Assembly (NCBI RefSeq): GCF_014635845.1
Contig: NZ_BMDP01000005.1
Coordinates: forward strand, 1 to 49,511
Direction: 5' to 3'
Length of the DNA: 49,511 bases
DNA from: Oxalicibacterium solurbis
Lineage (GTDB): Bacteria; Pseudomonadota; Gammaproteobacteria; Burkholderiales; Burkholderiaceae_D
Positions 1-15,352 of this stretch are shown here, piece after piece (the first letter of the stretch is position 1; each line of letters opens with the position of its first letter). Below the pieces are notes generated by a model. It did not search any database. It had not been told where the DNA came from and saw only the letters and a program-made list of their open reading frames with translations. A program made the position numbers and the translations under genes.

Positions 1-1
1 T

Positions 2-41
2 GAGGTTCGGCCGGGATTCGTGCAAAATTTGTCAAAACTCC
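2..41 (+). repeat. left terminal inverted repeat (IRL) of the Tn3-superfamily element
   Basis: It starts GAGGTTCGGCCGGGATTC and continues with TGCAAAATTTG. It pairs with 49472-49511 read on the other strand. A CAAAATTTG-like core in a 38-47 bp repeat is typical of the Tn4651/Tn5041 branch. Confidence 0.92.
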
Positions 42-70
42 ATATAACTATATGAATAAAAAGGAGTTTT
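34..70. repeat. short inverted repeat overlapping the inner edge of IRL
   Basis: AAAACTCC (34-41) is mirrored by GGAGTTTT (63-70) with a 21-bp AT-rich spacer. It could be a hairpin limiting read-through from outside the transposon or a protein site. Function unknown. Confidence 0.4.
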
Positions 71-135
71 AACTTTTCGCTTGATATCCTTCACTCAGGT
101 ATTTTCAGTGCCTTGATGCCTGACTGAATGGAGTG

Positions 136-151
136 GTCCCAACGTTGGGAC
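136..151. repeat. perfect 16-bp palindrome GTCCCAACGTTGGGAC
   Basis: A perfect dyad without spacer lies 8 bp beyond the 3' end of the truncated HAD gene. No U-tract follows on either strand, so it looks more like a protein-binding site than an intrinsic terminator. Nothing else is recognised in bases 42-158. Confidence 0.45.
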
Positions 152-158
152 TTCAACA

Positions 159-396
159 TTAGTCTTTAAGCTTATTTCTGAGAATTGCCTCTTCCTTCGA
201 GGTGAAACCGGCCTCGCAGATAATAAGATTTCTGCATTGGTGTGGAAATAATCCATCATCATCATCCAAAGCGACCCAAGGAATGTCGCGCCCAGCCAGA
301 TAACATTCTATTTCTCTAAAACGTATCCCATTAATGTCTTCAACACTCTCAATATCAATAATGGGAAGAACGTCAATTACTCTCGAAGCAATGTCC
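159..396 (-). pseudogene. C-terminal half of a HAD-fold gene split by IS21-type element 1
   Basis: Minus-strand frame with the second half of a HAD-like protein, including RFREIE, the acidic WVALDDDD motif and a C-terminal end at K-L-K-D. It begins at a Q-D-I codon trio exactly at the 397 border of the IS21-type element. The N-terminal half is at 11088-11284. Deleting 397-11087 and one copy of the ATGTCC duplication restores one open frame reading through F-S-Q-D-I-A-S-R-V, colinear with the intact paralogue at 573-1004. Upstream codons in this frame are read-through from the element's end repeats and are not gene sequence. Confidence 0.88.
391..396. repeat. 6-bp target-site duplication ATGTCC, left copy of element 1
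   Basis: Identical to 11088-11093, immediately outside the two TGA...TCA ends. Confidence 0.88.
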
Positions 397-505
397 TGAG
401 TATTTGCATGAAGTGCGCCACTAATTCGCACTGCAATGTAGCCATGCTTTCGCATTTCAAAGTGGCCACCTAGCCGCACGTAAAAGTAGCCATCGCCAAG
501 GTGTG
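397..505 (+). repeat. left-end repeat array of element 1
   Basis: TGAGTATTTGCATG (397-410) is followed by four tandem units of about 24 bp starting at 411, 435, 459 and 483. Their common core is AAAGTNGCCA, then about four variable bases and TTCGCA. IS21 ends are known to carry multiple internal repeats that bind IstA; assigning this role here is by analogy. Confidence 0.85.
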
Positions 506-572
506 AGTTTTATCCACACGGAATATGCGTCCAGATTACGTTGTTTCGATGGCCTGGCCTGACTAGACGCTA

Positions 573-1004
573 TCAACCTTCCGCCGAAAGGAAACTTCGC
601 AGCTTCTTCGCTTCCGCATCGCCGAATCCGGCGACGCATTGAATCAAGTTGGCGCAGCCACTAGGGAACAGATCCAGGTCGTCATCAAGCGCAACCCAAT
701 TGTCAGAACTGCCGTTGAGATATTGGTGTATTTCTCTGAATCGAATGGCTTCCATATCAGCCAGGCTATGTATCTCAATGACAGGCAGCACATCAACGAT
801 TCTGCTTTGAATATCAGAGGAAAAGAGTGCTGCCAATGCAGAGAGTGAAAGGCTTTCGCGCCATGTGCTGCTAATTACGACATTCACATTCGGATAGTCA
901 CGGAGAACGCTTTCTAGACGGTCTCGATTTACAAATAGCTGACTCGAATCTTCCGGTGTTGGAAACGGGTGCAGTACTCCATCAAAATCCAAAAATAGAA
1001 TCAT
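573..1004 (-). CDS. HAD-superfamily protein, Swiss-Army-Knife RNA-repair HAD type
   Basis: A 143-residue single-domain protein. It has the DxD nucleophile motif in FLDFDGVLH near the N-terminus, the motif II serine/threonine in VVISSTWR around residue 45, and the acidic motif WVALDDD around residue 105. The layout resembles the compact HAD domains found in bacterial RNA-repair (SAK) proteins, so a phosphatase or nucleic-acid end-processing activity is plausible but unproven. It starts at an ATGA overlap with the gene upstream, so the two form an operon and probably work together. It is about 55-60 percent identical by eye to the HAD gene that element 1 interrupted. Confidence 0.8.
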   Translation of the reverse strand: MILFLDFDGVLHPFPTPEDSSQLFVNRDRLESVLRDYPNVNVVISSTWRESLSLSALAALFSSDIQSRIVDVLPVIEIHSLADMEAIRFREIHQYLNGSSDNWVALDDDLDLFPSGCANLIQCVAGFGDAEAKKLRSFLSAEG

Positions 1005-2119
1005 CGACCGGCCTTGGCACCAAACTCTCGGCCAATCGGTTCGAAATCCATCACTTCGCCGCTATGCAGCTTAGGGTCAAAAAGTGCCAATTTCATCTCA
1101 AGCGCCTTCTCTCCGCTGGCGCTTTTCTCTGCAATGCGACGCATATGGAAACGTCTTTTCTTGGTCCTGTTTTTCATTTTCGATTCCGCGGTATCAGTTG
1201 TCGGTGGCATCGCATTCTCCGATATAGAAATTGCGTCACGCATCGCTTTCAAGTTGTACAAGCTCGTTTCGGTAGGCGGTCCAAGATCAAGATCTGGGCC
1301 GACTAATGGCTGAAAGAAGTCGCGCAAAAACTGACTACGTTCGCCATTCAGAAGCTGCAAAGCATAGAAGCTTTCCTGCTTCCGATCCCGGGGACCCGAT
1401 GCCCGATATCGCAAGTGCTCAGCTAATTCACACAGCGCTTGTGACACAACCGGATAGTTGCACTCCTCAACATACATCCGGAGACCGGCATGCTTGACCA
1501 GGCTAAAGACACGTTCGGAGTAAAGCGCAAACAATCTTGCCCCTATCTGCCGATCGTTGAACTCGTCACCGAGCATGAGCAAAACACGGTAGATACTTTT
1601 CCCGCATTCCCATACCTGTTCGCTATCTTGGCGCTCGTAATTCATGCGCAACAAGATCGTCAATGCGGCCAAACTATCCACACTGGCACGACGCTCGAGA
1701 GACCCGAGATAGTGCCGTCCGCCTTTCAACCGAATCTCATTATTCGCTTCAAAAACGACGATTTGAATCTCGGGCACAAGATGTCGAAACCATCCGTGCT
1801 CTTGGCCGCTGATCGATCCCTTATGGCGCAAGACAGACCATAGTACGTGGTTGATTTCCCATCCTGATCCCGGAATCAGCTGGTTCGCATGCGTTATCAA
1901 CGACTCACGAGGAACATGGAGACCTTGTGAATATTCAAGGTACTTGTTATTGCGAATCCTGATGCCGTGAATGTCGTGGTCGGACTTACCCGGCTCCAAA
2001 TATCGTTGAACGTGACGAGGAATGTAGGTGCCGAGTTCATCGCCAAGGTATCGGAACCAATTGATTGTTCGGATTGCATCGACTTCATCATCGCGCCTTT
2101 TTGATCGTATCGTCGCCAT
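1001..2119 (-). CDS. unknown protein, operon partner of the HAD gene
   Basis: A 372-residue soluble protein not recognised as any family. The N-terminal half contains RRDDEVDAIRTINWFRYLG. The middle is helical, and the C-terminus is rich in Lys/Arg (KMKNRTKKRRFHMRR near residue 310), suggesting nucleic-acid contact. No signal peptide or membrane segment is visible. Its stop codon overlaps the HAD start (ATGA), the strongest clue to a joint function. An AT-rich stretch upstream (2120-2240) probably holds the promoter. Confidence 0.65.
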   Translation of the reverse strand: MATIRSKRRDDEVDAIRTINWFRYLGDELGTYIPRHVQRYLEPGKSDHDIHGIRIRNNKYLEYSQGLHVPRESLITHANQLIPGSGWEINHVLWSVLRHKGSISGQEHGWFRHLVPEIQIVVFEANNEIRLKGGRHYLGSLERRASVDSLAALTILLRMNYERQDSEQVWECGKSIYRVLLMLGDEFNDRQIGARLFALYSERVFSLVKHAGLRMYVEECNYPVVSQALCELAEHLRYRASGPRDRKQESFYALQLLNGERSQFLRDFFQPLVGPDLDLGPPTETSLYNLKAMRDAISISENAMPPTTDTAESKMKNRTKKRRFHMRRIAEKSASGEKALEMKLALFDPKLHSGEVMDFEPIGREFGAKAGR

Positions 2120-2312
2120 TTACAAGTCGATAAAGTGTCAAGAACGGTTCGACTATAGATGGAATATCTCATTTATTCAATGAGTTACGAAATCGCGGAT
2201 TATTAAAAAAGAGCGAAATTAAGGGGGGAATATATAGATTGGCTGCGCGTTTCTAGGTTGCTAAGCTTTCGATGACTAAACAACCCTGTAACAGCGAGTT
2301 ACCAGCAGCGCC

Positions 2313-2597
2313 ATGACCGACCTGAAGTTTGACGAACCGATGGCCACGTTGCTGGAGCGAGAGCTGATGCATCGCTATGGGCCGATGGTGTCCAATGATA
2401 ATTTGCGCATTGTGTTGGGCTATCCGTCGAAGGAGGCGTTCCGGCAAGCGATTTTCAGAAAAACCGTCCCAATCCCGATCTTCGATATTGAAAACAGAAA
2501 AGGCAAATTCGCCTTGGTCAAGGATGTCGCTGCATGGCTTGCAGAGCAACGAGAACGAGCCGTTACGGAAATGAATACATCGTCCGGCGACAAGTGA
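2313..2597 (+). CDS. small putative helix-turn-helix (AlpA/excisionase-like) protein
   Basis: A 94-residue protein with a helix pair around LERELMHRYGP and LGYPSKEAFRQAIF followed by a beta-wing-like IPIFDIENRKGKFALVKD and a final helix DVAAWLAEQRERA. This is the pattern of small winged-HTH regulators such as AlpA or excisionases. No strong Shine-Dalgarno precedes the ATG. It points towards istA but is separated from it by an intrinsic terminator, so it is a separate transcript. It could regulate the istAB promoter or assist the transposition complex; that is speculation from position. Confidence 0.55.
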   Translation: MTDLKFDEPMATLLERELMHRYGPMVSNDNLRIVLGYPSKEAFRQAIFRKTVPIPIFDIENRKGKFALVKDVAAWLAEQRERAVTEMNTSSGDK

Positions 2598-2650
2598 AGG
2601 AGCGTCATCATGACTTAGCCCAAACCGCATAGCGGGGGGTAGAAACGACA

Positions 2651-2682
2651 AAGGCCTGTGAGCGTCAACTCACAAGCCTTTT
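2651..2682 (+). terminator. intrinsic terminator after the small HTH gene
   Basis: AAGGCCTGTGAG, a 6-nt loop (cgtcaa), CTCACAAGCCTT, then a short T run. The 12-bp stem has one non-Watson-Crick pair. Confidence 0.8.
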
Positions 2683-2844
2683 GTACAGCGTTGGATCTCC
2701 AAGAACCGCGCTCAGTATCTCCCTTCCCAAATCCTCTGTCAACACTTTGAATTAATCGAAGTGCCTAGCCACGTCCGTGTGGCGCTCATGAAATTGCTGC
2801 CTTTGGCAGCGATAGATACAGCCATGGCCAACAGGAGAACCGAC

Positions 2845-4413
2845 ATGCGAAAAATTCGCGATGTCCTTGAGTGCATATTCACAAAAGAATTATCCGTAAG
2901 AGAAACGTCGCGGCTCTTACGCGTCGGTCGCAGGACCGTTACGGCATATGCGGAACGTTTTAAAACAGCGCAGCTATCGTGGCCATTATCGATTGACATC
3001 GATGACGATCAACTAGAGAAGGCCCTATTCCCTTCCACTGAAAGGCAAAAAAAGACCGATCCGCCGGTACATGATTTCGCAGCGGTCCATGCGGCGCTCG
3101 GGCAAAAAGGTGCAACGCTGGGAATTCTTTACCAAGAATGGCGAGAAGGCGTCCCGCTAAAAAATCAGATCAGCTATTCGCAGTTCTGCAGACGCTATAA
3201 CCGATTTAGAAAATCGCTGCAGGTATCGATGCGACAAACAGCAGTGTTTGGCGAGGTCGCCTTCGTGGATTATTCCGGCAAGACGCTGGCCGTGACAGAT
3301 CCTGATAGCGGAGAGCTGAAAAAGGTCCAGATATTTGTCGGTGTGTTGGGCGGATCAAATTACACATTTTGCGAAGCGACTTGGACCCAGACGTCGAGGG
3401 ACTGGATTGGTTCACATTCGAGGATGTTTGAATTCTTTGGCGGCGTGCCACGTATTGTTGTTCCGGACAACTTGAAAGCTGGGGTTACCAAGGCAGACCG
3501 ATTCGCCCCGGTGATTAACGAATCGTACAACGCGATGTGCCGCTATTACGGCACTTATGTCTTTCCAGCGCGTCCACGGGAACCGCGGGACAAATCAAAG
3601 GCGGAAGCAGGTGTGTTGCTGGCACAACGGTGGATTTTGTTTTCTTTGAGAAGCCGCAAGTTTTTTTCTCTGAACGAGATGAATCAGGAGATAGGTGCGT
3701 TACTGGAAAAACTGAACCGGCGTTCATTTCAGAAATTGCCTGGTTCGCGTTTCACAAAATGGCTGGAGTTCGAACAACCGGCCCTCATGCCTTTACCTGC
3801 ACAGCGATACGAGTTTGCAGACTGGGGAAAGGTGCGTGCGGCGCAGGACTATCACGTTTGCGTCGACCGCCATTTCTACAGCGTGCCTTACCACCTCAAA
3901 GGTCACGAATTCGAATATTGCCTCACAGCTCACTCTCTTGACTTGCTGCACCGAGGCAAATGCATTGTCACGCATACGCGTAGTTTGGAGCCCGATAAGG
4001 CGACAACCCTCGCAGAACATCAGCACCCGAGTCACCGAGCGGTACTGCAGTGGAATGAGCCGCAAGCGTTGGCGTGGGCCACAACAGAAGTTGGGCTGAA
4101 TACCGCAACGCTACTCAAGACGCAACTTGCCAAGGTCCGAGGTTACCTGCTGGGCTATCGCATCACACAAGCAATGAAAGAACTGTTTAAAAGCTATGGC
4201 AAGACCAGACTGGAAGAAGCATGCACTTATGCCGTGAAAAACAATGTGACTGGCACGCATGCGTTGCGCAACATCCTTTCCAAAAACTTGGACCAGTTGT
4301 TGAAGCACGATGAGCCGGAAAATCCAAGCGACATAGCCCACCAAAATATCAGAGGCGCCGACTACTACAGCGAACTTTTGCAATCGACAAACAATAAGGA
4401 AATCGAATCATGA
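2845..4413 (+). CDS. istA: IS21-family transposase IstA
   Basis: DDE recombinase of 522 residues. An N-terminal helix-turn-helix lies at about residues 15-40 (SVRETSRLLRVGRRTV). The catalytic acids sit in VDYSG (D142), PDNLKAGV (D208) and RDKSKAEAG (E254), giving D-D-45-E spacing as in IS21 transposases. The ATG at 2845 was chosen because AGGAGA lies 6 nt upstream; an in-frame ATG at 2824 and a GTG at 2761 have no such site. istB overlaps the stop by ATGA. With IstB it should act on the TGA-ended repeat arrays at 397 and 11087, and possibly in trans on those of element 2. Confidence 0.93.
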   Translation: MRKIRDVLECIFTKELSVRETSRLLRVGRRTVTAYAERFKTAQLSWPLSIDIDDDQLEKALFPSTERQKKTDPPVHDFAAVHAALGQKGATLGILYQEWREGVPLKNQISYSQFCRRYNRFRKSLQVSMRQTAVFGEVAFVDYSGKTLAVTDPDSGELKKVQIFVGVLGGSNYTFCEATWTQTSRDWIGSHSRMFEFFGGVPRIVVPDNLKAGVTKADRFAPVINESYNAMCRYYGTYVFPARPREPRDKSKAEAGVLLAQRWILFSLRSRKFFSLNEMNQEIGALLEKLNRRSFQKLPGSRFTKWLEFEQPALMPLPAQRYEFADWGKVRAAQDYHVCVDRHFYSVPYHLKGHEFEYCLTAHSLDLLHRGKCIVTHTRSLEPDKATTLAEHQHPSHRAVLQWNEPQALAWATTEVGLNTATLLKTQLAKVRGYLLGYRITQAMKELFKSYGKTRLEEACTYAVKNNVTGTHALRNILSKNLDQLLKHDEPENPSDIAHQNIRGADYYSELLQSTNNKEIES

Positions 4414-5186
4414 TCAATAACACTATTCAACAACTCGAAACACTGAAATTGTTTGGCATGGCCGAGGAGCTGAGTCGGCAAATCAACAATCCCAATATGC
4501 AGGACCTACCATTCGAACATCGGGTGAGAAGTATGGTGGATCACGAAACCACGTTACGTGAGAGCAAACGTCTGCAGCTTTTATTGAAAAAAGCCAGGCT
4601 ACCGATCAATGCTTCCATAGACGATATCGATTACCGATCGCCTCGTGGGCTAGACAAATCCAGCATGCTCACTTTATCAACGCTCGACTGGGTACGGCTT
4701 CGACATAATCTGGTGATTACCGGTCCTACTGGTACGGGAAAAACATGGATCGCCTGCGCCCTTGCCAACTACGCTTGTCGGCTTGGGCTATCGAGTTACT
4801 TCGTTCGCGTACCGGTGTTGATGGAAAGCTTGCTGTCGGCTCGCGCTTCTGGGCTATTCAGCACGCGGCTGGAGCAGTTGAAGAAGTTCGACCTGCTGAT
4901 TTTGGATGACTGGGGCATAGAGACATTCAGCAAACGTGCGCAGAACGACTTGCTCGAATTGGTCGATAGCAGGCTCAGTGCAAAGTCGATGATCATCACC
5001 AGCCAATTTCCCATGAGCCATTGGCATGACGCGCTGGATAACAAAACGGTCGCTGACGCCATCATGGACAGGATTGCGCATAGCTCGTACTCGATGCAGT
5101 TGAGCGGCGAATCTCTGCGAAAAATCAAGGGAGTGGTCACGAAAAAGACCGGAAAAGCAGCACTGAGCGAAAAGCAGACGCGCTGA
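4410..5186 (+). CDS. istB: IS21-family helper ATPase IstB
   Basis: A 258-residue DnaC/IstB-type AAA+ ATPase. Walker A is GPTGTGKT at residues 105-112 and Walker B is LLILDDWG with D166/D167; the terminal arginine-rich part is typical. IstB forms filaments on target DNA and activates IstA. The start codon overlaps the istA stop (ATGA), implying translational coupling. Full length with no visible damage. Confidence 0.94.
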   Translation: MINNTIQQLETLKLFGMAEELSRQINNPNMQDLPFEHRVRSMVDHETTLRESKRLQLLLKKARLPINASIDDIDYRSPRGLDKSSMLTLSTLDWVRLRHNLVITGPTGTGKTWIACALANYACRLGLSSYFVRVPVLMESLLSARASGLFSTRLEQLKKFDLLILDDWGIETFSKRAQNDLLELVDSRLSAKSMIITSQFPMSHWHDALDNKTVADAIMDRIAHSSYSMQLSGESLRKIKGVVTKKTGKAALSEKQTR

Positions 5187-5194
5187 TGGGATCA

Positions 5195-5236
5195 TTCGTA
5201 TTTGAAGGTGCGCCATGGCGCACTTCCAAATACGAA
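5195..5236. repeat. 42-bp near-perfect palindrome between istB and arsH
   Basis: Two 20-bp arms around a central AT match at 18 of 20 positions (outer arm TTCGTATTTG, inner arm GTGCGCC). It lies between the convergent istB and arsH genes and may work as a bidirectional terminator, although no T run follows. The right arm read on the minus strand contains TATTTG next to GAAGTGCGCCA. Both also occur in order at 401-420 in the left end of element 1, separated there by 3 bases, so it might instead be a relic of an IS end. Confidence 0.7.
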
Positions 5237-5250
5237 AGCGATCGAGATGC

Positions 5251-5964
5251 TTAAATAGCTTTTTGATTCACTCGTTTGCTGAGTTCTTCCGCGCTCTCGC
5301 GTCGCTCGCTATATCGATCGACCAGATACGGTGATACGTCCCGCGTGAGAAATGTGAATTTGAACAATTCTTCCATTACATCGACGACACGTTCGTAGTA
5401 AGAGGATGGCTTCATACGCCCAACGTCATCGAACTCCAAGAACGCCTTGGCGACCGACGATTGATTAGGAATGGTGATCATGCGCATCCAGCGGCCAAGT
5501 ATGCGCATCTGGTTCACGGCATTGAACGACTGCGATCCACCCGATACTTCCATCACGGCCAATGTTTTACCTTGCGTCGGCCGTACTGCACCGATGGCCA
5601 ATGGGATCCAGTCGATCTGGGCCTTCATGATGCCAGTCATCGCGCCATGACGTTCCGGTGAGCACCAGACCATGCCTTCGGCCCATTCCGCAAGGCTGCG
5701 CAGTTCCCGCACCTTTGGGTGCGTATCCGGCTCACTGTCTGGCAGCGGCAAGTCACGAGGGTCGAACACCTTGACCTCGCCACCCATCACTTCGAGTAGA
5801 CGCGCCGCTTCCATGGTCAGTAAACGGCTGTACGAGCGATCGCGTACTGACCCATACAGGAGCAGGAACCGCGGCGCGTGACGTGAGCTGCCTACACCGT
5901 GGAAATCCGCGTTAGTCGGAACCCGAAAATGTTCAGGCTGGACGTTCGGTAATTCAGTCGACAC
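5251..5964 (-). CDS. arsH: ArsH, NADPH-dependent FMN oxidoreductase
   Basis: Flavodoxin-fold protein of the ArsH family. The FMN-binding loop [13 protein letters not shown] follows the family N-terminal stretch [23 protein letters not shown] and the QIDWIPL segment are typical too. ArsH oxidises trivalent organoarsenicals such as methylarsenite to less toxic pentavalent forms. The GTG at 5964 is preferred (GAGGGA 6-7 nt upstream); a GTG at 5994 would add ten residues from the overlapping arsC remnant. It is the last intact gene of an ars operon whose arsC and arsB parts upstream are wrecked. Confidence 0.92.
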
Positions 5965-6145
5965 GTCGTCCCTCGCTGTCCGGTACTGCCTCACCGTCTT
6001 CTTTTAAGAACTGCTCCTTTTGCCGGTGGCGGCAGAAAGTCCAATACCAACTCCGATGGGCAGCACAGTTTAGTGCCTATTGGCGTGGCAACGAAGGGCC
6101 GATTGATCAGAATTGGAGTACGTACCATGGCGGTAGGCAGCTGTT
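5954..6145 (-). pseudogene. arsC remnant (glutaredoxin-type arsenate reductase, C-terminal part)
   Basis: Translating the minus strand gives RTPILINRPFVATPIGTKLC followed by CPSELVLDFLPPP, the C-terminal half of E. coli-type ArsC. One extra A in the run around 6003 (CTTAAAAGAAGAC) shifts the frame; correcting it continues [10 protein letters not shown] to a TGA overlapping the arsH start. The catalytic N-terminal half is missing. This arsC type differs from the LMW-phosphatase type at 14492. Confidence 0.85.
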
Positions 6146-6170
6146 CATCGCTTAACGCAGCTTAGGGTAA

Positions 6171-6318
6171 TTAACGCAGCGCCAGTAGTATGGCAATCAC
6201 GATGGGCGTCAGTATTAATGCGGCGCCATGGCAGGCCAACACCGCCGAGGCGGCCGCACCCAGTAAGATAATTAGCACAAACAGTTTCTGACCGTTGCTC
6301 AATGCTATCAGCTTGAAC
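6171..6318 (-). pseudogene. arsB remnant (arsenite efflux permease fragment)
   Basis: The minus-strand frame reads LFVLIILLGAAASAVLACHG then AALILTPIVIAILLALR and a TAA. This matches the membrane segment of ArsB around its conserved ANDGAALILTPIV motif, with the N-D pair changed to C-H. Only about 45 of some 430 codons are left, so the pump is non-functional. The rest of 6319-6400 shows nothing recognisable. Confidence 0.8.
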
Positions 6319-6408
6319 TTGGCCTATCTATTCGACTGGGATTGCACCTGAAAACGCACCATCTCAGGGCATAGCCTACGCAGATTATAACGGTTGTTCG
6401 CCTATCCT

Positions 6409-6436
6409 TTGAAAAGCAACAGTTCCTGTCTAAAAT
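6409..6436 (+). promoter_or_regulatory. candidate promoter of the pbrT-like gene
   Basis: TTGAAA (6409-6414) and TAAAAT (6431-6436) are 16 bp apart, 29 bp before the ATG. No MerR-type dyad lies in the spacer. A loose AT-rich dyad over 6437-6455 faintly resembles a Fur box but is too weak to call. Confidence 0.45.
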
Positions 6437-6465
6437 AGAATACTTCTCATTCTTGTCTGTCGATC

Positions 6466-8397
6466 ATGCGTGTCGCCCGTTTTATATCTCCCTTACTTTT
6501 TATCGCTTGTTTCTTATTCTCCCTGGGAAGCACCACAGTCAGCCATGCGCAGGACGCGACCACACAAGACAAAGCCAAGCAGATCTGGCAGATCCTTGAT
6601 TACTTGGCGGTAGATTACGGCGCGGCCGTCCAAAACGGCGCTGTCGCCAGCAAGGACGAATACGCAGAGATGCAGGAATTTTCCGCAAACGCCGAAAAGC
6701 AACTGTCCGAACTGCCTAAAACAGACGCCAGCGCAAAGCTCGTATCCGAAGCGAGCAAATTGCGGGAACTGATCGCGGCGAAAGCGTCGCCGGAGCAAGT
6801 GGCCGCGCAATCTCGTGCCCTGGCTGCAGACGTATTAAAAGTCTATCCGGTGCCGTTGTCGCCGACGCAGGCGCCTGATCTCAAGCGCGGAGCGGCTTTA
6901 TATCAAGCAAATTGCGCCTCTTGCCACGGCGCTGCCGGGCATGGCGACGGTCCTCTGGCCAAAAGCTTGAATCCACCTCCGATCGCACTGTCGGATCACG
7001 AACGTGCACGGGAACGCAGCGTTTTTTCACTGCAGCAGATTATTTCGCACGGCGTGGCAGGCACGTCGATGCCAGCGTTCACGCAGCTGTCTGAAGACGA
7101 CCGTTGGTCGATTGCATTTTTCGCGTCCACGATGTCGTACAGCGATGCCGACCGCGAAGCGGGCAAAAAAGCATGGACAGACAATGGGGCGCTGCGCAAC
7201 GCGGTACCGGACCTGAACGCGCTGACACAAGCCACTGAGGCGGGACTGGAAAAACAGGTCGGTGCCGGTGCGCGTCCACTGCTGGCACACTTACGTAACG
7301 AACCTAGCCAGGTGATGGCCTCTAACGAAGATAGCCTCGCTTTGGCGAAGAAACGTCTGACTGAAAGCGTACAAGCTTTGCAGGCAGGCGATAAGGCCAA
7401 TGCTTCCCGACTTGCCTTATCAGCCTATCTCGATGGCTTCGAGATTGCTGAACCGGCCCTGTCTGCCAAAAACAATGCGCTATTCAATGATCTTGAAAAA
7501 GGAATGGGTGCATTCCGGGCAATCGTCAATCGCGGTGATCTCGCAGGAGCAAAAGAGGCGGAACAAGCACTGCAAGTTAAGCTGACCCAAGCACAAGATG
7601 CATTAACAACCGCAACTGACGATCCACTTGCCACTTTTCTTGGCGCCTTCACCATTTTGCTACGCGAAGGGCTCGAAGCGTTGCTGGTCGTCGTTGCCAT
7701 GGTTGCGTTTTTGAAGAAAGCCGACCGTCGCGACGTCTTGAAGTATGTGCATGCGGGCTGGGTAGTCGCTTTGGCTGGTGGCGGCGTCACGTGGGCCGTG
7801 GCGACGTATCTGGTCGATCTCAGCGGCGCCAGCCGGGAAATGACAGAAGGATTTTCAGCGATCTTTGCCGCCGTCGTTTTGCTGGGCGTTGGCATCTGGA
7901 TGCATCAAAAAAGCATGGCTGGTCGCTGGCAGGCCTACGTGAAGGACAAGTTGTCTTCAGCGCTGAATGGGCGCTCGGCATTCATGCTCTTCATTCTGTC
8001 GTTCGTGACGGTATATCGCGAAGTCTTCGAGACGGTGTTGTTCTACGCTGCGCTGTGGACCGGTGGAAACGGGGCGTATATGTTATTGGGTATGGCTGCT
8101 GCCATTCTGATTTTGGCTGTCGTTGCCTTCATTCTCCTGCGGACATCCGCCCGACTGCCGATCGGTCAGTTCTTTGCTGCCAGCTCCGCGTTGGTCGCCC
8201 TCCTGGCCTTCGTCATGGTCGGTAAGGGCGTGGCGGCTTTACAGAAGGTCGGCGTATTCGACATCACGCCCATAACCTTCCCGCAAGTCGATTTACTTGG
8301 CATTTATCCTACGACGCAGACGGTTGCTGCCCAATTACTAATATTGGCCATCATTGTTGCAAGCGTAATGTACAACGTACGGTCTGCCAGAATGTAG
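6466..8397 (+). CDS. pbrT: PbrT-like cytochrome c / FTR1-family metal permease
   Basis: A 643-residue inner-membrane protein. It has a signal peptide (residues 1-28), a c-type haem motif CASCHG near residue 150, and a long helical periplasmic part. A C-terminal FTR1 permease of about seven membrane helices follows, with the two REXXE-type motifs (REGLEALL near 400 and REVFETV near 520). FTR1 proteins move oxidised iron; PbrT of the pMOL30 lead operon has this fused layout and is credited with Pb(II) uptake. The convergent neighbouring PbrR-like regulator supports the pbr reading, but an iron role cannot be excluded. Confidence 0.82.
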   Translation: MRVARFISPLLFIACFLFSLGSTTVSHAQDATTQDKAKQIWQILDYLAVDYGAAVQNGAVASKDEYAEMQEFSANAEKQLSELPKTDASAKLVSEASKLRELIAAKASPEQVAAQSRALAADVLKVYPVPLSPTQAPDLKRGAALYQANCASCHGAAGHGDGPLAKSLNPPPIALSDHERARERSVFSLQQIISHGVAGTSMPAFTQLSEDDRWSIAFFASTMSYSDADREAGKKAWTDNGALRNAVPDLNALTQATEAGLEKQVGAGARPLLAHLRNEPSQVMASNEDSLALAKKRLTESVQALQAGDKANASRLALSAYLDGFEIAEPALSAKNNALFNDLEKGMGAFRAIVNRGDLAGAKEAEQALQVKLTQAQDALTTATDDPLATFLGAFTILLREGLEALLVVVAMVAFLKKADRRDVLKYVHAGWVVALAGGGVTWAVATYLVDLSGASREMTEGFSAIFAAVVLLGVGIWMHQKSMAGRWQAYVKDKLSSALNGRSAFMLFILSFVTVYREVFETVLFYAALWTGGNGAYMLLGMAAAILILAVVAFILLRTSARLPIGQFFAASSALVALLAFVMVGKGVAALQKVGVFDITPITFPQVDLLGIYPTTQTVAAQLLILAIIVASVMYNVRSARM

Positions 8398-8423
8398 ACG
8401 GCGTCTTAACGGGGCCAATAGCG

Positions 8424-8855
8424 TCATTGCCGTTTGGCTCGGTTCGTATTGCCCGATTTGAATTGTTCGACGGCGAGCGCATGCAGTACCCCACATTCGC
8501 TTGACCTGCGCTGTGCATCACAACGGCGACGCAGACCGGCAAGTTGGCTTTGCAACGTCTGCAACGCTTGCATCTGCCGCTCTACGTCGAACAAATGGTC
8601 GTCGATCAGCTGATTCACGTCATCGCACAATAAGTCCGGCTTGTCTTGCAACTCAATGAGTCTGGCTATTTCTTGCATGGCCAGCCCGAGTGCGCGGCAA
8701 TTGCGGATAAAGAGCAGACGCTCCAAATCTTGTTCGCCATAGACACGGTAGTTCCCCGGCGTGCGTCCAGGATTACCCAACAGCCCCTTGCTCTCATAGA
8801 AGCGCACGGTCACCGCTTGGCAGCCAGCCGCTTTCGCGAATTCGCTTATTTTCAT
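8424..8855 (-). CDS. pbrR: MerR-family Pb/Cd-type regulator (PbrR/CadR-like)
   Basis: A 143-residue MerR protein. It has an N-terminal winged HTH (KISEFAKAAGC... FYESKGLL), a dimerisation helix, and metal-ligand cysteines at C77, C112 and C121, the triad arrangement of PbrR/CadR sensors. It is divergent from the CDF-like gene, whose promoter carries a matching dyad with a 19-bp spacer, and converges on the pbrT-like gene. The expected role is Pb(II)/Cd(II)-dependent untwisting of that promoter. Metal specificity cannot be read from sequence alone. Confidence 0.88.
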   Translation of the reverse strand: MKISEFAKAAGCQAVTVRFYESKGLLGNPGRTPGNYRVYGEQDLERLLFIRNCRALGLAMQEIARLIELQDKPDLLCDDVNQLIDDHLFDVERQMQALQTLQSQLAGLRRRCDAQRRSSECGVLHALAVEQFKSGNTNRAKRQ

Positions 8856-8864
8856 AAAGCCTCC

Positions 8865-8895
8865 TTGACCTTATAGCTACTATAAGCTTTATTCT
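8865..8895 (+). promoter_or_regulatory. MerR-type promoter/operator upstream of the CDF-like gene
   Basis: -35 TTGACC (8865-8870) and -10 TATTCT (8890-8895) are 19 bp apart, the overlong spacer typical of MerR-activated promoters. The spacer contains the perfect dyad CTTATAG-cta-CTATAAG (8870-8886). Confidence 0.88.
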
Positions 8896-8920
8896 GCAAG
8901 AATTGACGCGGGAGGACAAC

Positions 8921-10225
8921 ATGGCGGCAGAAACGAGTCAGCAGGGAAACAACCGTTACCGTAGCACCTATACGGTACCGAAGATGGATTGCCCTTCAGA
9001 AGAGAACTTGATTCGGATGGCACTGGCAGCCATACCGGTCCACCAATTTGCATTCGACCTTCAGAACAGACGTGTGACGATCGAGCATGACGGCATACCT
9101 GACGATGTATCTGCACGCCTTGAGCCTTTGAAACTAGGCGCGACCTTGGCCAGCTCCGAGCCACTATCGGTTCTAAATGATCGGCAGTCAACGCATCAAG
9201 AAACGACGTTCAGCATCCCGAAGATGGACTGTCCATCTGAAGAGAATCTGATCCGCATGGCGTTAGCCGACGAGCCCGTCACCTCATTGCGTTTCGACTT
9301 GCCGAATCGGACGTTATACATCACGCACAGTGCCGATCCGGCCGATTTGCTCGCACGCCTGTCGCCATTGAATCTTGGGGCGTCGGTGAAAGAAACGCGT
9401 GTGGTAGGCGAAGGCAGCAGCGGTTATCAGCAAACTGTTTTTTCCATACCGAAGATGGATTGCCCTTCTGAAGAAAACCTGATCCGCATGGCGCTTCAGG
9501 AATACGGTGATAGCGTGCGTTTGTCGTTCGATCTAAAAAGCCGTCAGTTGCAGGTCGTGCACCAGGTGCCGGCGTCAGAGATTCTTGCCAAGCTCAGCCC
9601 TTTGAATCTCGGTGCATCGATTACGCAGACAACAATGGCGGACAGCGGACCGGTCAGCGCGACGGCGGCACCAGACGACACAGGAGAAGCGCGCACGCTG
9701 CGTCTGCTGCTGGCGATCAATGGCGCCATGTTTGCCGTCGAAATGATATTGGGATTAATGGCGCAATCGGCCGGGCTGGTCGCGGATTCTCTGGATATGT
9801 TCGCCGACGCTGCCGTGTATGGGCTTTCGCTTTACGCGGTTGGCGGGGCCGCGCACATGAAGGTCCGGGCAGCGCATATCGCTGGTTGGCTACAGATGAT
9901 TCTGGCCGTCGGCGCGCTGGTAGAAGTCATACGCCGGTTCACGTTCGGCAGCGAACCGGAGTCGGACCTGATGATGGGGATCGGCGTACTTGCCCTGATC
10001 GCTAACGTGAGCTGCCTGGTACTGATTTCCCAAAAACGGAATCATGGGGTGCACATGAAAGCGAGTTACATCTTTTCTGCGAACGATGTGCTGGCGAACA
10101 TCGGTGTCATCGTGGCCGGCTTGCTTGTCCACTGGACACATTCGTCGTATCCGGATCTTATTATCGGCACCTTCATCGCGTTGATTGTCATGCGTGGTGC
10201 TCAACGCATTTTGAAACTCTCTTGA
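8921..10225 (+). CDS. CDF-like cation transporter with three N-terminal metal-binding repeats
   Basis: 434 residues. Three tandem repeats of about 77-80 residues each contain PKMDCPSEENLIRMAL, with cysteines at C24, C104 and C181. The units are also nearly identical at DNA level around the motif, which implies recent duplication. A membrane domain from about residue 250 to the end follows, with CDF-like signatures (LVADSLDMFADAA, SANDVLANIG) and about six helices. The usual cytoplasmic C-terminal CDF domain is absent. ATG 8921 has GGAGG upstream; an in-frame TTG at 8903 is less likely. Likely exporter of Pb/Cd/Zn-type ions, standing where pbr operons usually have the PbrA ATPase. Confidence 0.85.
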   Translation: MAAETSQQGNNRYRSTYTVPKMDCPSEENLIRMALAAIPVHQFAFDLQNRRVTIEHDGIPDDVSARLEPLKLGATLASSEPLSVLNDRQSTHQETTFSIPKMDCPSEENLIRMALADEPVTSLRFDLPNRTLYITHSADPADLLARLSPLNLGASVKETRVVGEGSSGYQQTVFSIPKMDCPSEENLIRMALQEYGDSVRLSFDLKSRQLQVVHQVPASEILAKLSPLNLGASITQTTMADSGPVSATAAPDDTGEARTLRLLLAINGAMFAVEMILGLMAQSAGLVADSLDMFADAAVYGLSLYAVGGAAHMKVRAAHIAGWLQMILAVGALVEVIRRFTFGSEPESDLMMGIGVLALIANVSCLVLISQKRNHGVHMKASYIFSANDVLANIGVIVAGLLVHWTHSSYPDLIIGTFIALIVMRGAQRILKLS

Positions 10226-10749
10226 TGGATATTCCCTTTCAGGAGACCTCAACGGAGCAACGCTGGCTCCAAGCAAGAAGGCGGCACCGCACGGGCCTGC
10301 TCACGCTCGCCTTCATTGTGTTCGCTCTTGATCAGTTGACCAAACGGTGGATAGAGTCGACCTTGGACTTGGGGCAAGTATGGCCGGTATCGTCCTTTTT
10401 CAATTTGGTTCATGCCCTCAATACAGGTGCGGCATTCAGCTTTCTGGCCGACCAATCCGGGTGGCAACGTTGGTTTTTGATCGCACTCGGCGTCGGCATA
10501 TCAGCTGCGCTCACCATATCGATCGTCTTGCATCCACTGCAAAAAACGGCGACATCGTTTGCCCTGCTAATTGGCGGCGCGATGAGCAATGTTGCTGATC
10601 GTTTAACGCGGGGCGCCGTTGTCGACTGGCTGGATTTTTACCTGATGAGATGGCATTGGCCCGCATTCAATATTGCGGACATGTCGATCGTGGTCGGCGC
10701 GCTCTTGCTTTGCCTCCACGCACATTACGGCGAACAGCCGACTCCCTGA
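10225..10749 (+). CDS. pbrC: LspA-like signal peptidase II (PbrC type)
   Basis: 174 residues with about four membrane helices. Motif regions are ALDQLTKRWIES (first aspartate), NTGAAFSFLAD, GGAMSNVADRLTRGAVVDWLDF and the second catalytic aspartate in FNIADMSI. It starts by TGATG overlap with the CDF-like gene, so the two are coupled. Lead-resistance operons carry such an lspA copy (pbrC), thought to support envelope sequestration of lead. It is not the housekeeping lspA, which normally follows ileS. The 230 bases after it hold no recognisable gene. Confidence 0.92.
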   Translation: MDIPFQETSTEQRWLQARRRHRTGLLTLAFIVFALDQLTKRWIESTLDLGQVWPVSSFFNLVHALNTGAAFSFLADQSGWQRWFLIALGVGISAALTISIVLHPLQKTATSFALLIGGAMSNVADRLTRGAVVDWLDFYLMRWHWPAFNIADMSIVVGALLLCLHAHYGEQPTP

Positions 10750-10983
10750 GAGGGGACAGCCGGGACGTTAAAAAAATTGCGGTTGGTTCTCGCCTTCAAA
10801 CTTATATTGAACTGTAGTGCGTGTTGCACTCCAATGCGAAATTAATGCCAAGCCGCAGTAACGCCACCTTAGCGGTCCTGCCAGCCTTCTTCGCTGACAC
10901 GTCATATAAGTTCAATGCATCGTAGATATACCTACATTGCGAGTCTCACATCTATAACCACGTCAATAAATAAATTCTTCAAA

Positions 10984-11087
10984 GCGAAGGCGGCGGCAAA
11001 AGCGCTGCGAAATTGTGGCTACTATGAGATGCGAATTTATGGCTACTTTGGCGTGCGGATCAATGGCTACTTTCATGCGCATCCTCA
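10984..11087 (-). repeat. right-end repeat array of element 1
   Basis: Read inward on the minus strand: TGAGGATGCGCATG, then units starting at 11073, 11049 and 11025 (AAAGTAGCCAT... CGCA) and a degenerate fourth to 10984. Same length and core as the left array, in inverted orientation. Confidence 0.86.
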
Positions 11088-11093
11088 ATGTCC
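11088..11093. repeat. 6-bp target-site duplication ATGTCC, right copy of element 1
   Basis: Identical to 391-396; lies between the TCA end of the element and the HAD N-terminal half. Confidence 0.88.
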
Positions 11094-11284
11094 TGAGAAA
11101 ACAGGGTTTTCAAGTACGGAAGTGCGTAATCTTGCCGCCAGCTACTGCTAATTACGATTTGTACATTTACGTATTCTCTTAGTACTGCCTCAAGCCTCGG
11201 TAGATTGCAAAATAATTTCGCACTGTCCTGAGGTGGAGGAAAATCATGCAGAACGCCGTCAAAATCTAGAAAAATAATTTTCAT
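11088..11284 (-). pseudogene. N-terminal half of the HAD-fold gene split by element 1
   Basis: Begins ATG-K-I-I-FLDFDGVLHDFPPP, contains VVISS-type motif II as IVISSSWRQ, and runs to LFSQDI where element 1 begins. It carries the DxD catalytic motif, while the second acidic motif is at 159-396. The open frame extends upstream of 11284 to 11563, but that part looks non-coding (Arg/Ser/Pro-rich, crossing a terminator-like hairpin). An intact ancestor would encode about 142 residues, like the paralogue at 573-1004. Confidence 0.88.
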
Positions 11285-11730
11285 TCTGCGAATCGCATTT
11301 AACCTGTACCTAACAGATACGTGGAGCGCGTAGACGTCATCAAAGTGTGACTTTACGGAATGAGATACCAAAGAAAAAGGCCCCGAAGGGCCTGATCTCG
11401 GTAGTAGGCTACCTTGCGAGATTCTGTTTCCCCTGCTAGCCGCAGGACCCAATTTTCTTTGGGCAGCACGTCCGTCTTTCACTCGCTCTCGGATCGTCTT
11501 GGACGGAATTGTACATTGAGAGTCAGTCTCGCAATGCGTCAGTGGCACTAAATTTTCGTCCAACCGGCGCTACTTTCCCCAACACTTCGCAGTTCTGTCG
11601 CGTGTCTTACTAATCATGACGATCCGCTACGATTGCCAGAAAAAGAAAAGCCGCCAAGGTTGCGCATTGTTAAGAGGCGTGGCGGCTATGTTGAAATCAC
11701 TATAACCAAACCAGTGCATTTGCACAAGAC
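11285..11730. other. intergenic stretch with two minus-strand terminator-like hairpins
   Basis: No gene is recognised here. AGGCCC-cgaa-GGGCCT (11378-11393) is followed by a T-rich run on the minus strand. AGCCGCCA...TGGCGGCT (11649-11687) is followed by TTTTCTTTTTC on the minus strand. Both look like intrinsic terminators for transcripts entering from the right, before element 2 inserted at 11737. Confidence 0.6.
11649..11687 (-). terminator. intrinsic terminator (minus strand)
   Basis: Stem AGCCGCCA/TGGCGGCT with a 23-nt loop and a T-rich tail on the minus strand (CTTTTCTTTTTC). Confidence 0.7.
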
Positions 11731-11736
11731 CTTTAG
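11731..11736. repeat. 6-bp target-site duplication CTTTAG, left copy of element 2
   Basis: Identical to 15353-15358, directly outside the TGAG end at 11737. Confidence 0.86.
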
Positions 11737-11840
11737 TGAGTATACGCATCGACATTGCCACTGATTCGCATCTCAAAGCTGCCACCTAACGCATCTGAAA
11801 CCTGCCATCGATTCGCATGGCAAATTTGCCTACGCAGACC
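11737..11840 (+). repeat. left-end repeat array of element 2
   Basis: TGAGTATACGCATCG, then units at 11752, 11775, 11798 and a partial one at 11822. Core: AAA, two variable bases, TGCCAYC, ATTCGCAT. Spacing is 23-24 bp. Confidence 0.85.
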
Positions 11841-11876
11841 AAGCGTTATGCGATCAGTTCAATGCCACAAACTGAT

Positions 11877-12452
11877 TTATGGATTTTGGCCGAGCGTTTT
11901 TTCTCCAAACACCCAGGGCAGCAAGCGCGCAATATTCAACGCATCATCGAGACCACGATGATGCGTTCCCTCCAGCGTGAGTCGAGCTAGTTGACAGGCC
12001 TTGACCATCCCAACCTCTTTACCGATGCGCTGCGCTTTTGCGAATAATCGCTTGGCATTCTGGTGCGGGAGGCCAAGCGGTTCGGCAATTCCATGCAAAG
12101 CGCTATCCCGCATGATTTGTTTTTGGTCGTATGCACCCCAGCTCACCCAGATTGATGTTGCGGTTCGATATTGCTCGACAAACTGGTGGAGCAATACCGC
12201 CGCATCCGGAAACAATGGCGCGCTATCCACATCACCTTGGTGAATGCCTGTGAGAGAAGTACAAAACGTAGTCAATTTTGGATTTCTGACGGGGCGCACG
12301 AACGATTGAAAGCGTCCCAGAACCGTTGCCTCGGGCCCAACCCAGCACGCACCGATTTCGATGGTTTCCATCTGCTCTGCAACGATAGAGCCGTCATCCG
12401 AGCAAGTCGCTTCAAGGTCAATTACTAGAATCGTCGCGTCTGGACGTGCCAT
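11877..12452 (-). CDS. DEDDh 3'-5' exonuclease (DnaQ/Eri1-like)
   Basis: 191 residues with the exonuclease motifs in order: VIDLEATCSDDG (Exo I, D-x-E) near residue 10, a middle acidic region around SWGAYDQKQI (Exo II), and GTHHRGLDDALNIARLL (Exo III with the His of DEDDh) near residue 163. The family includes RNA 3'-end trimming enzymes of the Eri1/KapD group as well as DNA exonucleases. It lies just inside the left end of element 2. The gene upstream on the same strand is 69 bp away, so a two-gene transcript is likely. Confidence 0.88.
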   Translation of the reverse strand: MARPDATILVIDLEATCSDDGSIVAEQMETIEIGACWVGPEATVLGRFQSFVRPVRNPKLTTFCTSLTGIHQGDVDSAPLFPDAAVLLHQFVEQYRTATSIWVSWGAYDQKQIMRDSALHGIAEPLGLPHQNAKRLFAKAQRIGKEVGMVKACQLARLTLEGTHHRGLDDALNIARLLPWVFGEKTLGQNP

Positions 12453-12521
12453 TCATTCTCCACTTCAAATACTTTATCGATAGAAGACGCTTCCTCATGA
12501 GGATTCTTCCTCCGTCTGTCT

Positions 12522-13529
12522 TTATCCGATCGATATGCTATGTACTTGTAGCTGTTCTTTGATATTCGCCTCGTGTTTGGCCAGCCAATTCCCTGGCTCG
12601 ATCTTTTCAGATTTTTTCCCTAACCGAGACATAGCCAGCCTAGCGGCCTTGGCACGCTCGTTTTTATCCTTTGTCAGAAAACAGAACAGGGAAAAATCAT
12701 TCTCGAAAAATTTTCGCTCAAGATCGAGTAAACGCTGCCCTTCTTGGATAGATCCGACATATTGTTGCAGCCTTCCTGCAACAGCATTGACTTGCTTAGA
12801 TTTACGTCGCAAATCCGGCTCTTGGATCAATGTTTCGGCAAGTTCGTACGCACGTACAATGTCATTGACTGCATCGTAGAGCGCATTAAATGCTCCTGCA
12901 GTAACCAGATCAAGTGCGGCAAGACTTCCAAGCCGGTGTTGGAATGAGCTGTTTTCGTATGTCGTGTGTCCATTCGAATCTGTCTCGGTTCGCTGCCGTG
13001 TGGCAGTAATGAAGACTTCATAGCGACGCGTTCTGACCATGTCCTGTAAACGTCTCGTGGTCAGCAAACCGAACTGACTTGTTGTCTTTTGCATCCGAGC
13101 TTCAAGGGCTTTGACGTCCGCCTGCATCTTTCCTAGCGCTCCAAGGCGCTCGGACTTGGCTGTAAGCGCTTCCGATAATGAGGCGATGCGCTCTTGCCGC
13201 GCCTTTTCATTCCGATAATGACTGAGATCGACCATCAATCGGCGATCGGCACCGAATTTGTTCACGCCACAATCGCCTCCGACCAAAGTCAACTTTCCGT
13301 CGGCTCTCTCGACAAGCCAGCCATGATTATGTGGTTCCTCGCACAGTTTTCCATTTTCTTTCTGCACACAGCAGCGCACTTTTTCCGGTAAGTGATAGTC
13401 GCCAAACAATCGTTTGTAATTAGCCGGGTTGAGTGGTGCATTCACTTCAAACTGATCGAGTGCTTGAATTTCTTCGAAGCTGCCGAAGGTACGAATTTCT
13501 AAACTGGATGCATTAGGCTGAGCACTCAT
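12522..13529 (-). CDS. unknown protein with Cys/His-containing N-terminal part
   Basis: About 335 residues from the ATG at 13529; the frame is open to 13619, but those residues look non-coding and neither start has a clear ribosome site. A Cys/His cluster (RCCVQ... LCEEPHNHG... GGDCG) within residues 45-90 could bind zinc. It is followed by a helical, partly coiled-coil stretch (EALTAKSERLGALGKMQADV). No family recognised. Its place directly upstream of the exonuclease mirrors the unknown-HAD pair at the left end of element 1. No membrane segment or signal peptide is visible. Confidence 0.65.
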   Translation of the reverse strand: MSAQPNASSLEIRTFGSFEEIQALDQFEVNAPLNPANYKRLFGDYHLPEKVRCCVQKENGKLCEEPHNHGWLVERADGKLTLVGGDCGVNKFGADRRLMVDLSHYRNEKARQERIASLSEALTAKSERLGALGKMQADVKALEARMQKTTSQFGLLTTRRLQDMVRTRRYEVFITATRQRTETDSNGHTTYENSSFQHRLGSLAALDLVTAGAFNALYDAVNDIVRAYELAETLIQEPDLRRKSKQVNAVAGRLQQYVGSIQEGQRLLDLERKFFENDFSLFCFLTKDKNERAKAARLAMSRLGKKSEKIEPGNWLAKHEANIKEQLQVHSISIG

Positions 13530-13605
13530 GGATAGTGGGCAAAGTTGTTTGCAATGTCGCATTCTATACTGGACATACGTACAGTAACCGACCATGCCAA
13601 ATGAT

Positions 13606-13640
13606 TTGATTATCTCCATTATTTCGACTATTATTGAAAT
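13606..13640 (+). promoter_or_regulatory. arsR promoter and operator, leaderless
   Basis: -35 TTGATT (13606-13611) and -10 TATTAT (13629-13634) are 17 bp apart. The dyad ATTTC (13621-13625) / GAAAT (13636-13640) overlaps the -10 and is a good ArsR autoregulatory site. The ATG starts at 13641, only 6 nt beyond the -10, so the transcript would be almost or fully leaderless. Confidence 0.72.
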
Positions 13641-13976
13641 ATGGAAGAATTAGAAATCGCCAAAGCGCTAAGTGCCATCGCGCACGAGTCGCGGCTCGCC
13701 GTTTTCCGTCATCTTGTTCAGGCCGGACCGCAAGGTCTACCCGCCGGCAAGCTGGCCGAATTAACAGGCTTGGCTCCTTCGTCCCTATCGTTCCATCTCA
13801 AGGAACTCGTCATGGCCAATATGGCGAGCTCAAGGCAGGAAGGGCGATTTGTCATCTACTCGGCCAAGTACGAAACCATGAATGCCGTGCTGGCCTACCT
13901 CACTGAAAACTGCTGCGGCGGCAACCCTTGCACTCCGGCTTCCCCCGCCTGCTGCCCTGAAGGAGAATCGTCATGA
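13641..13976 (+). CDS. arsR: ArsR-family arsenite-responsive repressor
   Basis: A 111-residue winged-HTH repressor with recognition helix region LAPSSLSFHLKEL at residues 45-60 and wing ASSRQEGRFVIYS. Its cysteines are C-terminal: ENCCGGN then PCTPASPACC. This is the type in which As(III) binds a C-terminal cysteine set rather than the helix-3 CVC of E. coli ArsR. It overlaps arsI by ATGA and so heads an arsR-arsI-arsC-acr3' operon. No Shine-Dalgarno is visible, consistent with the leaderless promoter. Confidence 0.93.
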   Translation: MEELEIAKALSAIAHESRLAVFRHLVQAGPQGLPAGKLAELTGLAPSSLSFHLKELVMANMASSRQEGRFVIYSAKYETMNAVLAYLTENCCGGNPCTPASPACCPEGESS

Positions 13977-14455: not shown

Positions 14456-14491
14456 CCATCCGTTCTTAACTTCCACCTCGATCGCGACATC

Positions 14492-14998: not shown

Positions 14999-15003
14999 CC
15001 GTC

Positions 15004-15210
15004 ATGACAGCTTCACAAGCGGCCGTCGCGAAAGAGGCAGCACCAAGCATTGGTTTTTTTGAGCGATATCTGACGGTCTGGGTCGCGCTATGCATTGTTG
15101 TCATCGGCATCGGGCAGGTCTTCCCTTCCGTGGTACGTGTAGTTGGCGGCATGGAAATCGCCCAGGTCAATCTGGCGGTGGGCGTACTGATCTGGGTGAT
15201 GATCATTCCA
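15004..15210 (+). pseudogene. truncated acr3 (arsenite permease, first ~69 codons)
   Basis: Begins MTASQAAV and contains SIGFFERYLTVWVALCIVV and GQVFPSVVRVVGG up to VLIWVMIIP, the conserved start of Acr3 through its second membrane segment. Homology then stops and the frame continues into the element 2 end repeats. Roughly 280 residues are missing, so it is not functional. Confidence 0.9.
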
Positions 15211-15222
15211 ACTGCCCATCAA

Positions 15223-15352
15223 GCGCCATGTAGTGGCAAGTTTGCCATGCGAATAGATGGCAACTTTCAGATGCGACCCGTAGCAGGTTTGTTATGCGAT
15301 CAGATGGCAAGGTTGCGATGCGAATCGATGGAAGTTTTGATGCGAATATTCA
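15223..15352 (-). repeat. right-end repeat array of element 2
   Basis: Read inward: TGAATATTCGCATC, then five units starting at 15338, 15314, 15290, 15267 and 15243 (core AAASTTGCCATC... TTCGCAT). It is the longest of the four arrays, with one more unit than the left end. Confidence 0.86.

Follow-up and report, generated by a model that had tools for sequence, protein, structure and literature searches.

A mobile element of 10,691 bp, here called E1, occupies positions 397 to 11087 of contig NZ_BMDP01000005.1 of Oxalicibacterium solurbis (assembly GCF_014635845.1; forward strand, 1 to 49,511; "the window" below is this whole contig). E1 is very probably an autonomous IS21-family unit ("transporter") transposon of a lineage with exchangeable cargo and a two-gene accessory module. 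The conclusion is reached by comparing sequences: it draws on the ends, the target duplications, a target gene that continues in frame, cargo exchange between relatives, the presence of one unit at several sites, natural empty sites, and the linkage of the accessory genes to istA and istB (istAB).

E1 has IS21-type ends with TGAG tips and arrays of 24-bp units. By inspection and array search, the left end with its TGAG tip and 24-bp units lies at 397 to 500 (plus strand), and the right end, a 24-bp unit array with the tip CTCA, at 11000 to 11087 (minus strand). The left junction reads ATGTCC|TGAGTATTTG at 391/397 and the right junction CGCATCCTCA|ATGTCC at 11087/11088, with the two copies of the target duplication at 391 to 396 and 11088 to 11093. 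When inverted TG..CA ends flanked by a duplication were sought blindly around istAB, the pair 397/11087 came out first: 18 of 26 end bases match, and the 6-bp duplication ATGTCC is perfect. For each of E1 and two further elements described below, E2 and E3, 0 of 100 shuffled sequences contained a pair as good. The two strongest 21- to 27-bp arrays within positions 390 to 11100 start at 11002 and 425, that is, at both ends of E1. The ends, arrays, and perfect duplication given in a preliminary description of this DNA were all recovered. Together with IstA, IstB encoded directly downstream, and repeated-unit ends with terminal TG..CA, this short duplication is among the features of IS21 membership; target duplications in the family measure 4 to 8 bp. 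E1 is not compact and limited to istAB, a form typical of IS21 but not defining, since it carries eight further named genes.

A simple explanation for these data could be that an ordinary IS21-like insertion sequence (IS) of about 2.5 kb lies inside an unrelated segment and that the ends at 397 and 11087 are remnants of another element. IstA and IstB are indeed normal members of the IS21 family models, and relatives of 2.6 kb exist. However, istAB lies deep inside E1, as first described, and an array and tip search within E1 yielded only one candidate inner pair, which agreed at 13 of 24 bases and had a 4-bp match; no inner ends or arrays were convincing, whereas the perfect duplication flanks the outer ends. 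The same ends and core also recur around unrelated cargo, and in natural empty sites the ends, core, and cargo are all absent at once, which excludes a lone IS for the Pseudomonas relatives described below and leaves it very improbable for E1. Alternatively, E1 could be a composite transposon, in which two IS21-like copies, one of them gene-less, bracket the segment. IS21-type arrays at both ends would fit such a structure, but the duplication flanks the whole, a single istAB lies inside with no inner tips found around it, and there are no two complete IS copies at the borders. Because the same layout recurs in E3, in Herminiimonas contaminans, and in Pseudomonas, an accidental composite is very unlikely.

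Evidence for insertion as a unit also comes from the target. E1 splits a minus-strand HAD gene into a 3' part (159 to 396) and a 5' part (11088 to 11284), and the halves join in frame once E1 is removed, as the preliminary description proposed. In an alignment with a HAD paralogue carried by E1 itself, the joined protein is identical at 81 of 141 residues and is gapless at the junction. E1 sits in a paralogue of its own HAD_SAK_2 cargo gene (573 to 1004). The expectation of natural empty sites was borne out for five Pseudomonas insertions; no natural record of the E1 site with an intact HAD gene was found, and the E1 empty site is reconstructed from the in-frame join and the paralogue only. 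Megablast of window positions 1 to 11800 against plasmids matched 13 records, and the best stretch of each was short and lay in the arsH or FTR1 gene region.

In Pseudomonas, IstA is 52% identical to that of E1, and the elements are bounded by the tips TGAGTATTCGCAT. The pWTJH36 element of P. aeruginosa spans 17,091 bp (duplication GTCTAAC) and that of pSE5369-NR 19,723 bp, while pSE5369-VIM holds two copies of 21,030 and 21,034 bp, the second with the duplication GTTCATC. The P. shirazica element (26,046 bp; duplication ATTGATG) carries a large ars cluster and is inserted in TnAs1. The pSE5369 copies consist of the pWTJH36 unit plus nested insertions and are 99.4 to 100% identical across long aligned segments; one P. 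aeruginosa unit occupies four plasmid sites.

Natural empty sites were identified for all five of these insertions: for the pWTJH36 copy in pWTJH17, for the second pSE5369-VIM copy in a P. koreensis plasmid, and for the P. shirazica copy in an intact TnAs1, with flanks that overlap by 7 bp in each case. The flanks of the pSE5369-NR copy and the first pSE5369-VIM copy, when paired crosswise, match empty sites at two positions of pTTS12 and overlap by 6 bp each, and the two SE5369 plasmids (L075 and L077) carry the target duplications CCCAAC and GTCGAG crosswise. Such pairing implies that these plasmids swapped flanks via recombination between two transposon copies, and it indicates that a larger plasmid was probably split in this way to give the SE5369 pair.

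A comparison of the P. aeruginosa element with that of P. shirazica reveals cargo exchange. Identity is 94% over the first 4,975 aligned bp, which hold the left end and core, and 95% over the last 74 bp; the cargo between is nearly unrelated, with only three matches of 99 to 128 bp found, two of which overlap in the P. aeruginosa element. Terminal arrays and istAB with variable cargo between them had been predicted at the outset. The Pseudomonas ends match 4 of 72,556 plasmid records, and all full matches belong to the five cargo-bearing elements; these ends around istAB alone, the arrangement that had been named as contrary to the proposal, did not occur in these records. Same-end relatives, the cargo swap, and the Pseudomonas empty sites all support the earlier view that the whole segment behaves as one unit. 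In a sister branch, pNY8709-IMP carries an 11,547-bp element with the duplication CCCACA, whose istA region is annotated as two genes, and a P. fluorescens plasmid, likewise from a sister branch, has arrays tight around a cargo-free core, without a duplication.

Related elements with istAB also occur closer to E1. One further istA copy in the same genome, 74% identical, lies inside E3, an element of 13,227 bp with the duplication CATAGC and a cargo of arsB, an arsC-arsH fusion, and a chromate transporter gene. Of three neighboring genes (L003, 1939 to 6717), the first two match Phage_integrase and the third is split by E3; the split gene has no match in Pfam, and its open reading frame (ORF) continues in frame across the joined flanks. 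The H. contaminans element spans 7,744 bp and carries SulP-like and universal-stress-like genes (both below cut-offs). The H. fonticola element reaches the contig end and adjoins a 652-aa gene beside a Phage_integrase gene (L037, 6291 to 9677). A kinship of the gene split by E3, as a recombinase, with the gene next to the H. fonticola element was considered but not supported; the two are not similar. A lean toward mobile-DNA targets is possible: E1 and E2 lie in a Tn3-family transposon, TnAs1 hosts the P. shirazica copy, and integrase-type neighbors occur elsewhere; the numbers are small, and plasmid searches are biased.

The transposition core of E1 consists of istA, encoding the IS21 transposase (2761 to 4413, plus strand, start probably at 2824; NF033546, 253 bits, cut-off 160), and istB, encoding the helper AAA+ ATPase (4410 to 5186, plus strand; NF038214, 241 bits, cut-off 200), which overlap by 4 bases. 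IstA residues D149, D215, and E261 (numbering of the 529-aa form) are invariant in E1 and four relatives and are presumed to be the catalytic triad. Upstream of this core lie two genes that, like E2, went unmentioned in the preliminary description. The first (1001 to 2119, minus strand) encodes a 372-aa protein that belongs to no known family in family scans and, by locus comparison, is conserved beside istAB; the second (2313 to 2597, plus strand) encodes a 94-aa protein with weak matches to PrtN (below the cut-off) and to phage excisionases. Across the autonomous elements these correspond to two conserved additions, a protein of 247 to 390 aa without an assigned family (the accessory protein below) and one of about 90 aa with a weak PrtN/excisionase-like match. 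No family was found for the accessory protein in Pfam, NCBIfam, or PHROGs, where single members gave three chance-like Pfam matches, and a profile of the family gave 0 matches among PDB sequences. An AlphaFold2 model built from three sequences had a mean pLDDT of 40.8.

We asked how closely these genes keep company with istAB. Homologues of the accessory protein occur in 15 of 72,556 plasmid records, 11 of which were read; istA and istB lie beside the accessory gene in nine of these (istA as two ORFs in one), and the small gene is detectable in 10. In Acinetobacter and Acidovorax stretches with an accessory homologue, istAB is not annotated. All four Herminiimonas copies have the accessory gene beside istA and istB. 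Among 399 Burkholderiales genomes, 11 besides the window's own gave an accessory match, mostly weak: two loci hold all four genes, one holds the accessory and small genes, one (a 5-kb contig) a partial istB, and seven neither the small gene nor istAB. A class-wide search with a single accessory protein matched 1 genome of 369 besides the window's own. The records read annotate the accessory genes and the ends region as hypothetical protein or as plain istA/istB. Our guess is that the accessory proteins act in regulation or target choice. They might instead be passengers that take no part in transposition, for instance a pair of regulators, a view that accessory-like proteins without detectable istAB (8 of the 11 Burkholderiales loci) and a locus without the accessory gene (L041, below) would favor. 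The accessory gene, small gene, istA, and istB nevertheless stay linked in divergent elements while other cargo changes, and we consider passengers a somewhat doubtful account, though one of appreciable probability.

To place E1 in context, other IS21 relatives from a genome scan served as a size control, comprising 22 of 30 loci after two accessory-bearing loci and six partial or distant ones (L063 to L068) were left out. The end search extended 2.5 kb on each side. Ends were resolvable in 7 of the 22 (39 to 56% IstA identity), and all seven measure 2,580 to 2,660 bp; they were accepted since both tips start with TGCG(T/C)ATTCC. For L057 a chance pair scored equal to the tip pair, and L041 and L045 gave chance-like pairs only. 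The accessory gene was detectable in none of the 22. Nine contigs (L042, L044, L051, L052, L055, L056, L058, L059, and L060) have less than 1.2 kb before istA and no resolved ends, so its absence there cannot be judged. In an IstA tree, a group with support 90/82 unites 20 rows in which no accessory gene was detected, 8 of these on short contigs. The tree left out the split IstA of L072 as well as L053 and L055, and ISPst3 was too distant for rooting.

Next to E1, at 11731 to 15358 including duplications (element, 11737 to 15352), lies E2, another element with ends of this kind, found by end search and supported by the shuffles. Its duplication CTTTAG is perfect (11731 to 11736 and 15353 to 15358), and it lacks istAB. 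The unit motif has 7 matches in the window, where 0.08 would be expected; the two ends of E2 account for 5 of them and the right end of E1 for 2. E2 carries an RNase_T exonuclease gene, a 365-aa ORF, arsR, a gene of the ArsI/CadI family, a gene resembling arsC (below the cut-off), and the start of a transporter gene. The right array cuts the last, which we take to be arsenite-transporter-like; the remaining 68-aa fragment has no match in Pfam.

Elements with these ends and no istAB are not confined to the window. The tip pattern has 50 matches in 13 Herminiimonas genomes, compared with 3 for a reversed control, and 20 stretches around some of these tips were fetched, of which six contain a facing tip pair. 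These are an element of 13,807 bp (L132, 2465 to 16271; duplication ACGAA), three of 642 bp (L133, 1134 to 1775; L134, 1039 to 1680; L135, 1052 to 1693; duplications among the three GTAAA, CGTCAT, and none), one of 782 bp (CTAGG), and one of 515 bp (CTAAAC). A single 158-aa gene (exonuclease-like by eye only) between ends makes up the 642-bp element, whose copies in three genomes are 93.6 to 95.2% identical; none of the three pairs shows similarity in the flanks. The 158-aa protein is 57% identical to a 154-aa E3 cargo protein, for which Pfam gave no family, and the 13.8-kb element has a relative of its gene (55%) at its left edge. The arsenic genes of the 13.8-kb element are arsR, arsH, and an arsC-like gene; it also holds genes for a SulP-like protein, an ABC transporter of the phosphonate/phosphite type, a member of a dehydrogenase family, and two IS30 transposases; the transporter and dehydrogenase set is presumably for phosphite oxidation, an assignment unconfirmed by any model. 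The genome of this element gave no match to E1 IstA at an E value of 0.001.

E2 and the other istAB-less elements could be immobile relics that lost istAB in place. The truncation of a transporter-like gene at the right array of E2 and the 642-bp copy without a duplication would agree with this. In opposition, copies of the 642-bp element in three genomes are 93.6 to 95.2% identical and have unrelated flanks, and the duplications of two copies are perfect and differ from each other; we judge relics to be rather unlikely. Most likely, the ends-only elements (E2 and the 0.5- to 13.8-kb elements of other Herminiimonas genomes) were moved in trans.

Several observations weigh against an autonomous, modular lineage as outlined here. 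For the H. contaminans copy, the flanks match over only 4 bp and, once joined, yield no continued reading frame. No convincing duplication was found at the sister-branch loci of Rms149, C. freundii, P. fluorescens, and Comamonas. The duplication of E2 would equally persist after an in-place deletion of istAB, and one of the three 642-bp copies has none. All four genes occur together in only 2 of the 11 Burkholderiales loci, with accessory-like proteins lacking detectable istAB in 8, and L041 lacks the accessory gene though its IstA nests among accessory-bearing rows of the tree.

The remaining genes of E1 are largely cargo. The HAD_SAK_2 gene (minus strand; PF18143, 83 bits) is borne by E1 and overlaps the accessory gene by 4 bases. 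Directly after istB, a repeat search found a spacerless inverted repeat with 21-bp arms that are 90% complementary (5195 to 5236), which is by inference terminator-like. It is followed by arsH (5251 to 5994, minus strand; TIGR02690, 398 bits, cut-off 292) and a gene for an FTR1 permease with a cytochrome c domain (6466 to 8397, plus strand); this gene had been labeled PbrT-like, and its domain matches are to FTR1 and cytochrome c. Next come genes for a CadR/PbrR-type MerR regulator (8424 to 8855, minus strand; TIGR02047, 151.9 bits, cut-off 151.45), for a CDF transporter with an HMA domain within three similar repeats (8903 to 10225, plus strand; repeat search and domain matches), and for signal peptidase II, lspA (10222 to 10749, plus strand; TIGR00077, 131.6 bits, cut-off 74). 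As for the surroundings, the window from 1 to 49511 looks like a complete Tn3-family transposon, with matching ends at both contig tips, a TnpA with the Tn3 DDE domain (46412 to 49456), a phage-integrase-family gene (18806 to 19777), and metal-efflux genes between them (by eye).

From these features a mechanism can be proposed. IstA would bind the 24-bp-unit arrays at 397 to 500 and 11000 to 11087 and pair the ends of E1 across the whole 10.7 kb, and IstB would activate strand transfer into the target, leaving the 6-bp duplication. Every gene between the ends would travel along. Cargo between constant ends and core is exchanged within the lineage, and the two accessory genes would belong to its transposition module. 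The chemistry expected for the lineage follows IS21, in which IstB activates a tetramer assembled on paired ends (PMC10122671, PMC11208146).

E1 resembles IS21, IS5376, and IS1491/ISPpu7 in its IstA DDE transposase and IstB AAA+ helper, both above family cut-offs, and IS21 also in its repeated-unit ends (L1/L2 and R1/R2 in IS21) and terminal CA (PMC10122671, PMC11208146). The lineage differs from IS21 in size (7.7 to 26 kb versus about 2.6 kb), in its cargo genes and two accessory genes, and in having at least three units in most ends (read by eye). E1 likewise has the structure of a transporter IS (tIS) as defined in PMC9330008, passenger genes on an IS backbone between one end pair; the istAB-linked accessory genes go beyond simple passengers. 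The tIS class is already known, and the passages of PMC9330008 consulted include no IS21 case. The IS21-like locus of Rms149 (IncP-6) shares the accessory, small, istA, and istB genes and a 22- to 23-bp array beside istB, but it belongs to a distant branch, with an accessory protein 27% identical, and its element ends are not delimited. Tn7, Tn5053/Tn402, and Mu have binding-site arrays at their ends and carry large cargo. They share with the lineage a DDE transposase and an AAA+ ATPase (PMC11208146), whereas the lineage has IstA/IstB rather than TnsB/TnsC or TniA/TniB and duplications of 5 to 7 bp (one of 4). The preliminary comparison of E1 to a Tn7/Mu counterpart stands only as an analogy; no TnsA-, TniQ-, or TnsD-like family was found among the ten E1 proteins scanned (Pfam and NCBIfam). 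In the open-access papers searched, we recognized no earlier account of cargo-bearing IS21 unit transposons (subscription literature, ISfinder, and TnCentral lay outside that search).

IS21 is a minimal model for transposases driven by AAA+ ATPases. We tentatively suggest that it includes a lineage of modular carriers of cargo, up to 26 kb in size, whose accessory pair may serve control or target choice, as the first IS21 target selector or regulator, and which may feed a trans-mobilized pool of single- and multigene elements with the same ends. A lineage that carries 7 to 26 kb of exchangeable resistance and other genes would give IS21 a role as a gene carrier alongside Tn7 and Tn5053. Such a lineage would supply ends and accessory genes that the records read annotate as hypothetical protein or plain istA/istB, and it would make testable how an IS turned into a cargo transposon.

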